Positions 28,117 to 30,733 of a DNA stretch of 33,655 nt are shown piece by piece. Location of the stretch: NCBI GenBank assembly GCA_017889625.1, contig JAGGAD010000059.1, positions 1 through 33,655 of the forward strand, given 5' to 3'. The position numbers and the translations under genes were made by a program. The stretch's first letter is position 1, and each line of letters opens with the position of its first letter. Source of the stretch: Bacillota bacterium (lineage in GTDB: Bacteria > Bacillota > Negativicutes > Sporomusales > CTSoil-080). Below the pieces are notes generated by a model. The model did not search any database. It saw only the letters and a list, made by a program, of their open reading frames with translations, and had not been told where the DNA came from.

Positions 28117-28406
28117 TATAAACAAACCCCTTTTTCTAATGCTTTATTGAATGTAGTTTTAACCTCGTGTTTAATAATAGTATAAAAGCTATCGTTGCCA
28201 AAACTAAAAGGTTTCCATAGAAGTAATCTCCCTCGTCTGTTAGAATTATCCATGTTGAGAAAAAAACCTTTAGATTAAAGGAGCTGGTTTAACATAAATT
28301 TGTCTTATTCATAAATGATATAAGTGTAAGTCAGCATTAAACTGTACTTTTAGAGAAAAGCGTTGGTCGTTGCTTCTCGCCATCGTTGCCAAAACTGACT
28401 GACATG
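28117..28406. other. Intergenic stretch with a 15-bp direct repeat
   Basis: ATCGTTGCCAAAACT occurs at 28191-28205 and again at 28382-28396, 191 bp apart. Nothing gene-like is seen between; the minus-strand promoter of the YbaK gene must lie at the left side. Confidence 0.4.
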
Positions 28407-28435
28407 TTGTATTTATTGGAGTATTGTGGTATTGT
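28407..28435 (+). promoter_or_regulatory. Promoter of the ABC-F leader
   Basis: TTGTAT (28407-28412), a 17-base spacer and TATTGT (28430-28435); the predicted start near 28442 lies just ahead of the leader ribosome binding site. Confidence 0.6.
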
Positions 28436-28466
28436 AAAATTAACTTGTATAAAAGGAGGTGGCATG

Positions 28467-28619
28467 ATGAACGTAACCGGCTTAGTAAACGGAATCTTGG
28501 CAAGACTGGCTCACTATGTTTCTCGGATAACAGCCCTAACCGTCAGTAACGGAGGTGTCTGCCTGCAACTAAATATTATGTTAACTAAGCAACCGCGTCA
28601 TCATGCGCCTAACGCGTAA
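28467..28619 (+). CDS. Leader ORF upstream of the ABC-F gene (50 residues)
   Basis: AAGGAGGT (28453-28460) lies 6 bases before ATG 28467, a stronger site than most genes in the window have. The protein begins MNVTGLVNGILARLAHYVSR and ends KQPRHHAPNA; no known domain. It ends 7 bases before an intrinsic terminator, which is followed by the ABC-F gene 190 bp later. Antibiotic-resistance ABC-F genes are often controlled by ribosome stalling on such an upstream ORF, which prevents the terminator from forming. This role is inferred from layout. It may instead encode a functional small protein. Confidence 0.6.
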   Translation: MNVTGLVNGILARLAHYVSRITALTVSNGGVCLQLNIMLTKQPRHHAPNA

Positions 28620-28625
28620 ACGGGA

Positions 28626-28661
28626 AATACCCGGTGATTCGCTTGCCTGGGTATTGTTTTT
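28626..28661 (+). terminator. Leader terminator (attenuator) of the ABC-F gene
   Basis: AATACCC (28626-28632) pairs with GGGTATT (28649-28655), with a bulged GG/CC continuation, followed by GTTTTTC. It lies between the leader ORF and the ABC-F gene. Confidence 0.7.
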
Positions 28662-28700
28662 CTACAGGGAAATTTTGCCGGAACGGCAACATCTTGTTAT

Positions 28701-28751
28701 GATAAATAACGGCCTAGGCCAGCGTAAAGCGGGCTCAGGCCGTTATTTATC
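28701..28751 (+). promoter_or_regulatory. Second leader hairpin of the ABC-F gene
   Basis: GATAAATAACGGCCT (28701-28715) and its perfect complement (28737-28751) flank a 21-base loop; GGCCTAGGCC at its base can form an alternative pairing. No T-run follows. A small TTGCCG/CGGCAA hairpin precedes it (28675-28689). Confidence 0.65.
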
Positions 28752-28810
28752 GTTTAGCATAGCCTTTTCGTAACACTTAGACAGTCCGCTGGCAAAGAAA
28801 GGAGAACAAC

Positions 28811-30733
28811 ATGATTGAAATAGCATTACGCAATATTGAGAAATACTATGGGGCGCATCACTTGCTTAAAGGAGTTACCTTTGAAGTACAAACTGGAGAC
28901 AGACTAGGTCTTCTGGGCCGGAATGGTACCGGAAAAACCACCTTGCTCAATATTATGGAAGGCCGGACGGCCAGCGATGCCGGTGAAAAAATGCTTCGTA
29001 GAGGCGCTGTTGTAAGCCTGCTTGAACAAATGCCGGAATTTCCTCCCGAATACACCGCCTACGATGCTATCTATTCGGCCTACAGCGACTTAATAACAAT
29101 CAAAACACAAATGACGGACCTGGAACAAGCCATGGCGCAACAAACCGGCAGCCACGATATGTTGCAAAAGTACGGACAACTACAGCAAGCCTTTGAGAGC
29201 CGGGAAGGGTATGCGATCGAAGATAACCTGCGCCGGGTTTGCGTGGGGCTCGGGCTTAGCGCCGAACTCTTAGCAACCGAATTTACTGCTCTGAGCGGTG
29301 GCGAAAAAACCCAAGTTGTACTGGGAAAATTGTTGCTAAAAAAACCGGATATCCTATTACTGGACGAACCAACCAACCACTTGGATATTGCCGCCGTGGA
29401 ATGGCTTGAACAGTATCTTGCGGAATACAAAGGCACCGTTATCGTCATTTCTCATGACCGTTACTTTCTCGATCAAGTAGTGAATCGTGTCATCGAATTA
29501 GTTGAGGGCAAGGCCGAGATATACGAAGGCAACTACTCCTATTTCGTTGCGGAAAAACAGGCCCGCTGCGATCAGCAGCAACAACAATTTGACCAGCAGC
29601 AAAAAAAAATCCACCAGATGGAAATGGCTGCTAAACGCATGCATGACTGGGCTCAGCGGGCGGATAATCCCAGTATGCATAAACAGGCATTTAATATGGA
29701 AAAACGCATCGAACGGCTGGAAAAAACCGAGCGACCTCCCCAGACGGAACACATCAAAGCCCGGTTTGGCCAACAAAAATTTTCTGGACAAGAAGTGATT
29801 GTTGCCCGGAATTTGGCAAAACACTTTGACGGTCAAAGTGTTCTTAAGGGCTTGGATTTCACTCTACATAAAGGAGAACGAGTCGCTCTGTTTGGGGCGA
29901 ATGGCACTGGAAAGTCCACTCTGTTTAAACTTATTACCGGGGAACTAGCCGCAGATGCCGGGACAGTCAGTCTTGGTGCCAGCATCCGCCTTGCTTACCT
30001 GCCGCAGATAGTCACCTTTAAAGAACCAGAATACAGTGTGTTGGACACAGTCCGCTGTGAAGTGGGAGTTGAAGAAGGCGAAGCACGCCGGCTCCTGGCA
30101 AAATATCTTTTCCGGGGGGAAGGCGTATATCGTAAGACTAAAAACCTCTCCGGTGGGGAAAAAAGCCGCTTGCGGCTTTGCCTGCTGATGCAAAACGATG
30201 TCAACCTACTGCTCCTGGATGAACCCACCAACCATTTAGACATTGACGCCCGTGAATGGCTGGAAACAGCACTCGAAGACTTTGACGGCACCCTGCTGTT
30301 TGTATCGCATGACCGCTATTTTGTTGGTAAATTTGCCACACAAGTATGGGAATTAGGTGACGGAAGACTGACTGTATATCCGGGTGATTACGCCTACTAC
30401 CGACGAAAATATAGCGAAAAAACAGCAGTAGTTTTCCCGCTGGAACGACAGAAACGCGTTGCCGCAACCGAACTTTCTTCAATATCCCTGACGCCAGTCA
30501 GCCCCAAACCATCCCCGACCCGCAATTCCATTTCGTCGGACAAGGCCGCGGCAGTAAGTCAGGAACTGGAAAGTGCTATCGAGGAGCTAGAAAGAGCCTT
30601 AAAAGCCATAGAACCCCGTATGCAGCAATGCGGCAGCGACTTTGTCGCCCTCGAACCGTTGCTGCGGCAAAAACAAGAATGGGAAAATCAACGGGATACC
30701 CTATATCAAGAATGGTTGGAAATAAACAATTAA
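28811..30733 (+). CDS. ABC-F family ATPase, ribosome-protection/translation-factor type
   Basis: 640 residues with two ATPase domains and no membrane segment. Domain 1: Walker A GRNGTGKTT (36-44), signature LSGGEKTQVVLGK, Walker B ILLLDEPTNHLD. The linker is long and charged (QARCDQQQQQFDQQQKK, then RMHDWAQRADNPSMHKQAF), the arm that enters the ribosomal E-site. Domain 2: Walker A GANGTGKST, signature LSGGEKSRLRL, Walker B LLLLDEPTNHLD. A C-terminal coiled coil (about 575-635) follows. ABC-F proteins act on the ribosome; some displace antibiotics (Lsa, Vga, VmlR) and others are housekeeping factors. The attenuator-like leader favours an inducible resistance type, without proving it. AAAGGAG precedes ATG. 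Confidence 0.9.
   Translation: MIEIALRNIEKYYGAHHLLKGVTFEVQTGDRLGLLGRNGTGKTTLLNIMEGRTASDAGEKMLRRGAVVSLLEQMPEFPPEYTAYDAIYSAYSDLITIKTQMTDLEQAMAQQTGSHDMLQKYGQLQQAFESREGYAIEDNLRRVCVGLGLSAELLATEFTALSGGEKTQVVLGKLLLKKPDILLLDEPTNHLDIAAVEWLEQYLAEYKGTVIVISHDRYFLDQVVNRVIELVEGKAEIYEGNYSYFVAEKQARCDQQQQQFDQQQKKIHQMEMAAKRMHDWAQRADNPSMHKQAFNMEKRIERLEKTERPPQTEHIKARFGQQKFSGQEVIVARNLAKHFDGQSVLKGLDFTLHKGERVALFGANGTGKSTLFKLITGELAADAGTVSLGASIRLAYLPQIVTFKEPEYSVLDTVRCEVGVEEGEARRLLAKYLFRGEGVYRKTKNLSGGEKSRLRLCLLMQNDVNLLLLDEPTNHLDIDAREWLETALEDFDGTLLFVSHDRYFVGKFATQVWELGDGRLTVYPGDYAYYRRKYSEKTAVVFPLERQKRVAATELSSISLTPVSPKPSPTRNSISSDKAAAVSQELESAIEELERALKAIEPRMQQCGSDFVALEPLLRQKQEWENQRDTLYQEWLEINN

Follow-up and report, generated by a model that had tools for sequence, protein, structure and literature searches.

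A conserved leader ORF in a putative ribosome-mediated transcription attenuator ahead of an ABC-F gene of Bacillota

An ABC-F gene preceded by a short reading frame and an intrinsic terminator raises the question of whether translation of the leader decides if transcription enters the gene. This question was addressed for a stretch of 33,655 nucleotides (the window), part of a 3.3-Mb draft genome from the order that also contains Sporomusa silvacetica and Sporomusaceae UBA7701. On the plus strand of the window a Shine-Dalgarno (SD) sequence, the leader ORF, a terminator, a strong hairpin and the ABC-F gene follow one another (Table 1). The original prediction took this as the layout of ribosome-stalling induction by antibiotics, with a leader peptide of unfamiliar sequence. 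Comparison with related loci indicates that the region is likely to be a ribosome-mediated transcription attenuator; the translated-leader layout was borne out and the peptide proved to be conserved. Leaders of this kind also occur at other loci.

Table 1. Features of the leader region and ABC-F gene, in window coordinates
Feature	Position	Strand	Basis
Candidate promoter CTGACA-17-TATTGT	28399..28427	+	9/12 consensus match; position only
Alternative promoter TTGTAT-17-TATTGT	28407-28435	+	weaker; likely the site of the original prediction
SD sequence AAAGGAGGTG of the leader ORF	28452..28461	+	direct reading; kept in homologues
Region 1: start codons plus codons 6-9, forming the 5' side of the leader hairpin	28463..28490	+	folding, pairing tests
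Leader ORF, 51 codons, MMNVTGLVNGILARLAHYVSRITALTVSNGGVCLQLNIMLTKQPRHHAPNA	28464..28619	+	homologous leaders; purifying selection on peptide
Nucleotide element GGAGGTGTCTGCC (approximate consensus GG(N)GAAGTCTGYCC)	28551..28563	+	comparison; frame-independent
Region 2: partner of region 1 (as anti-antiterminator) or of the terminator loop and 3' arm (as antiterminator)	28578..28605	+	
TAA in +1 frame, stop position of homologues (KYYVN-stop)	28586..28588	+	alignment
Intrinsic terminator, complementary to region 2 in its loop and 3' arm (about 28633-28647)	28626..28662	+	folding, z -3.3
Second hairpin, 17-bp outer stem	28699..28752	+	folding; homologues by inspection
ABC-F ATPase, 640 aa, ribosomal-protection-like	28811..30733	+	NF000355 match; tree

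The leader ORF and its homologues

The translatable uORF upstream of the ABC-F gene starts at ATG 28464 (or at 28467, the sequence being ATGATG) and stops with TAA at 28617-28619, giving 51 (50) codons. A search with the leader peptide by itself, apart from the ABC-F protein, recovered homologous leader ORFs followed by a terminator in five other genomes, each before an ABC-F gene of the same group (truncated in G126). The leaders of S. silvacetica (MMNSSSLVNNILDKLAHYISRITAFQCAMRRSLPIKEYYVN-stop) and UBA7701 (MTGSINNILAQLAHYISRITAQISACGGSLAQIVYYVN-stop) precede orthologous ABC-F genes, and those of G701 and G723 lie outside the class of the window. The five homologues have 38-41 codons, and the conserved core of the peptide is LVNxILxRLAHYxSRITA. 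Since SD, ORF and terminator recur in this way before ABC-F genes of the same group, the feature stands above chance, and the predicted order of ORF, terminator and second hairpin ahead of the gene was confirmed by reading, folding and these homologous leaders.

Three genomes of the order carry this ABC-F at E <= 1e-150, and a convincing leader match was obtained in the same three. The closest ABC-F (G028, 61%) has no recognisable leader, indicating that the distribution of the leader is sporadic. At L045:2907-4022 the leaderless G028 gene adjoins a divergent MFS transporter. A scan of genome contigs with strict back-translated patterns matched S. silvacetica and UBA7701 alone, tblastn of the leader peptide against plasmids and the search of viral contigs gave no match, and matches in phages were at chance level only. 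A match within a coding gene (L034) was discarded as chance, and another inside the start of a folP-like gene (L013) as probable chance.

Pooling codons 7-24 from the four most similar sequences gave a pS of 0.68 and a pN of 0.15 in the leader frame, whereas pS and pN were about equal in the other two frames, which show no amino-acid selection. Within LAHYISRITA, third codon positions differ by 62% and first and second positions by 5%. The contrast between pS and pN in the leader frame indicates that the peptide is very probably translated and that its residues matter.

The window has GG at 28551-28552 and its closest relatives have one G more (GGG in G126, for example). Most homologues carry GGG at the element and end in YYVN-stop at the position of window 28586-28588, an end that falls in the +1 frame of the window. 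Downstream of 28551-28552 the window ORF is read in a different frame, resulting in 51 codons and the C-terminus NIMLTKQPRHHAPNA. The predicted 50-codon ORF is real and has its SD, and its length is partly local, owing to this one-base frame difference. GG may be a real change or an error in the draft assembly; since G607 reads the element in the frame of the window (GGVC), the frame variation may be natural.

The ABC-F protein had NF000355 ("ribosomal protection-like") as best NCBIfam match, with 489.5 bits against a cut-off of 380. This label is broad, because the cut-off is likewise exceeded by a paralogue, L003 (493.3), which the tree places with EttA. In a tree with Msr, Vga, Lsa, OptrA and PoxtA the window protein falls in a supported clade of its own (98/94), deeper branching being unsettled. 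Between the SHD motif of the first domain and the second Walker A the protein has 8 residues more than EttA and fewer than Msr or Vga. A role of this protein in resistance is plausible.

The promoter is the weak part of the reading of the locus. A candidate site is present, as had been predicted, but it does not rise above expectation, four promoter-like sites having been found in the region against 4.9 expected from shuffles. A 15-bp direct repeat, ATCGTTGCCAAAACT, occurs in the intergenic region upstream of the leader at 28191-28205 and 28382-28396, one copy adjoining the divergent gene and the other at the candidate promoter. An Rfam scan of the window gave no match at gathering score; weak sub-threshold matches to TD-2, mir-1972 and ArcZ were discarded.

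RNA pairing and a proposed switch

A terminator between the uORF and the ABC-F gene is conserved in all six leaders. In the window it consists of a 12-bp stem with one bulge (28626-28655) followed by the U-rich tail GTTTTTC, and its stability (-12.7 kcal/mol) was equalled by none of 200 shuffles. A simple terminator scanner did not detect it, probably because of the bulge. The second hairpin, predicted with 15 bp, was borne out with a somewhat longer stem (-35.4 kcal/mol, z -8.2) and contributes much to the z of -3.0 of the entire leader up to the ABC-F start. By inspection, S. silvacetica, UBA7701 and G701 have analogous hairpins between terminator and ABC-F gene, followed by U-rich stretches. 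Sequestration of the SD of the window's ABC-F gene was considered and rejected, the SD region being essentially open.

The leader folds back on itself in three helices: the start codons pair with sequence just past YYVN (AUGAUGA/UCAUCAU), codons 6-9 pair with YYVN and its stop (GCUUAGUUAAC/GUUAACUGAGC), and codons 12-15 pair with the SLSK codons; in the window 28463-28470 pairs with 28598-28605 and 28480-28490 with 28580-28590. In G723 the middle helix is altered on both sides with pairing kept (GUUAAC/GUUAAC to GUGAAG/CUUCGC). When regions were set in the six sequences by sequence landmarks and not by folding, the 1:2 duplex reached -27.8 kcal/mol, compared to -11.9 for shuffled sequences, a value matched by 14 of 720 permutations of the partners. 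For the 2:3 duplex, between region 2 and the terminator loop and 3' arm, the values were -14.5 and -9.1 with 24 of 720 permutations as good, and for the 1:3 control 300 of 720. In a test of 15 loci none of 20,000 permutations equalled the 1:2 pairing, a result biased because region 2 had been selected as the partner of region 1; the 2:3 pairing, equalled in 29 of 20,000, is free of that bias, with a signal mostly from the window group, G607 and G583, and with weak pairing in Bacilli-type leaders.

RNAalifold of the six leaders gave changes on both sides in 9 of 47 pairs, although the total covariation term was unfavourable (+1.6). The leader hairpin of the window alone was not exceptional (z -1.1), and folds of leader plus terminator gave z from -1.5 to -7.1 in ten further loci. 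The compared sequences point to a helix between the start and end of the ORF with compensatory changes, the ORF end apparently being able to pair also with the terminator loop.

Switching was simulated by equilibrium folding with an unpaired 28-nt ribosome footprint at each codon, a procedure whose results are only suggestive. The terminator was weakened by simulated stalls at codons 3-5 of the window leader, at codons 5-7 of the UBA7701 leader and at codon 3 (partly 5) of that in G701; this early-stall effect was clear in the window, partial in UBA7701 and G701, and slight or absent in the other three. The window terminator also failed with the footprint at codons 43-47, which covers region 2 and the pre-terminator stretch, and the structure that displaced it in the window simulation differed from the proposed 2:3 helix. 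Two competing partners for region 2, in the uORF hairpin and in the antiterminator, are suggested in the six leaders by 1:2 and 2:3 complementarity, but folding reproduced the switch only in part.

Taken together, the comparison supports the leader ORF, selection on its peptide, the 1:2 helix, 2:3 complementarity, the terminator and linkage to ABC-F genes, and from these a mechanism can be proposed. Ribosomes would translate the leader peptide of about 40 residues (51 codons in the window) on the nascent RNA. Once they have completed it and dissociated, region 1 would pair with region 2, the whole ORF forming one hairpin, and the terminator would end transcription ahead of the ABC-F gene. If instead a ribosome stayed at the start or within the first few codons, most plausibly arrested by an antibiotic that targets it, region 1 would be covered; region 2 would then be free to pair with the loop and 3' arm of the terminator, and transcription would run on into the ABC-F gene, the product of which would relieve the arrested ribosome. 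Drug induction, the drug concerned and the stall position are inferred. The core (codons 15-24, LAHYISRITA) comes after the early codons at which a simulated stall is effective, and in the simple model a ribosome stalled on it would be too late to expose region 2, which leaves the core without an evident role; ribosomes queued behind such a stall may be one answer.

Related leaders and alternative readings

A covariance model built from the six leaders found two ABC-F leaders on which it had not been trained, in G583 (E 4e-12) and G607 (E 9e-7). It also matched, with E 0.0024, a second site in the genome of the window (C43:418-612; L077:418-612). This site carries a leader with a GTG start, MNVAKADLMNGMAYPLFSSSVTKAYAFTGYRGSLSIYKY-stop, has the element as GGGAAGTCTGTCC and forms the same type of hairpin (z -5.0 with the terminator included), followed by a terminator and an MFS gene weakly similar to tetracycline-efflux models, far below their cut-offs. 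C43:418-612 thus appears to be a second leader-ORF attenuator of the same type, before an MFS efflux-like transporter.

The second site bears on what the leader senses. A hard-to-translate peptide could stall the ribosome when ABC-F is scarce, so that the switch would respond to demand for ABC-F and not to a drug. The conservation of LAHYISRITA at the amino-acid level exceeds the need for RNA pairing, ABC-F proteins act on stalled ribosomes, and MsrD itself suppresses msrD induction (PMC10314930), all of which favours such autoregulation; feedback by ABC-F, however, makes little sense for an MFS efflux-like gene behind a related leader in the same genome, and we consider this reading unlikely. 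The presence of both MFS and ABC-F genes behind such leaders indicates a response to drugs.

It is less probable still that terminator and hairpins merely insulate the ABC-F gene and that the ORF encodes a small protein with its own function. The amino-acid selection on the peptide, which by inspection could form an amphipathic helix, and the weak promoter match would agree with this, but the two ends of the ORF show covariation at the RNA level, the terminator loop is complementary to the 3' one, and ABC-F or MFS genes lie next to the ORF. An ordinary amino-acid attenuator, in which the stall reports a shortage of charged tRNA, is very unlikely: classical amino-acid attenuators have the same 1:2 / 2:3 layout, but the peptides here lack a run of one amino acid and the downstream genes encode ABC-F and MFS proteins and not biosynthetic functions.

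An ABC-F search that ignored the leader added 17 loci, spread over 16 genomes. Leader ORFs assigned by eye carry the element GGGAGAAGTCTGTCC or a variant in about eight of them (G607, G583, G401, G593, G444, G501, G640 and G408), and several other ABC-F genes of the group have no leader. The 8-mer AGTYTGYC was present in 5 of 20 upstream regions (the 17 further loci, G028, Listeria and Staphylococcus epidermidis) against 0.42 expected from shuffles and in none on the opposite strand, a test that is not fully independent, the motif having first been noticed in two of these regions. Because it is read in three frames, the element was taken as a nucleic-acid element, and the GG..GUCUG stretch was dropped as a peptide motif for the same reason. 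Its GG(N8-9)TG spacing presumably resembles the consensus elemental pause of RNA polymerase, and 28551-28563 is a possible pause site.

In S. epidermidis plasmid pEpi56 (L050:550-696) an ABC-F gene has a 48-codon leader carrying GGTGAAGTCTGTC; no terminator was seen and a hairpin lies at the ABC-F SD, which suggests translational attenuation.

We tentatively propose, as a possibility somewhat short of even, that long-leader attenuators, including Listeria rliI, form a widespread but sporadic class in Bacillota, a portable drug-sensing module before an ABC-F subfamily and MFS efflux genes that would combine a nascent-peptide sensor, an ORF serving as switch hairpin and a frame-independent pause element. 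One type of switch would then link ABC-F and MFS genes.

Comparison with known systems

The Listeria leader found here is Rfam rliI (RF01487, 282.6 bits), which sits directly in front of the ABC-F gene and identifies it as lmo2760. Term-seq reported rliI as a conditional terminator of lmo2760 in Listeria monocytogenes, and the available part of that report makes no mention of a leader peptide (PMC8079631); a 2021 review called the physiological role of rliI unknown. The locus (L049:397-635) contains a 36-codon ORF behind an SD, MFLLNARTSIAKFLYIVRAIFSVIAVTLAKSAQKTV, that ends shortly after a GGCGAAGTCTGCCC element. Like the window, rliI has a leader-ORF hairpin followed by a terminator, the element near the ORF end and an ABC-F relative downstream (42% identity to that of the window); unlike the window, its peptide is unrelated and the element lies in another frame. 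RF01487 gave no match to the window at gathering score and none up to E 5 in 28380-28815, and the six-leader model did not match rliI (E 3), so that the kinship of rliI lies in layout, gene and motif and not in a sequence-structure match. A switch of the window type is a possible explanation for rliI.

Three other ABC-F attenuators resemble the window in layout. In vmlR of Bacillus subtilis (PMC9226507) the uORF lies inside an anti-antiterminator hairpin, with antiterminator, terminator and a further hairpin before the gene, but this uORF is the tripeptide MIN and SL-4 sequesters the vmlR SD, whereas the second hairpin of the window leaves the ABC-F SD uncovered. The antibiotic-induced cplR of Clostridioides difficile (PMC10201436) also has a uORF hairpin and a terminator before the ABC-F gene; its uORF is MRI and the terminator hairpin itself sequesters the SD of the gene. 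For msrD, ribosomes that stall on the leader peptide msrDL in the presence of a drug enable polymerase to get past an intrinsic terminator ahead of the ABC-F gene; the stall is at the stop codon of the 6-codon MYLIFM, and the available part of the report describes no long leader hairpin (PMC10314930). In Escherichia coli, toiL is a uORF on which different antibiotics stall ribosomes at different codons, and its first seven residues are reported to be conserved; it differs from the window in controlling topAI translation and Rho termination and not an intrinsic terminator before an ABC-F gene (PMC12121999).

The type of mechanism is therefore already known, and what appears to be new is a long leader in ribosome-mediated ABC-F attenuation. 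The literature-checked ABC-F uORFs have 3 to 6 codons (vmlR, PMC9226507; cplR, PMC10201436; msrD, PMC10314930) against a conserved peptide of about 40 codons here; the original description of the leader as unusually long was in this sense correct. Since this peptide is kept at the amino-acid level across several Bacillota lineages, the leader can be tested as a nascent-chain drug sensor.
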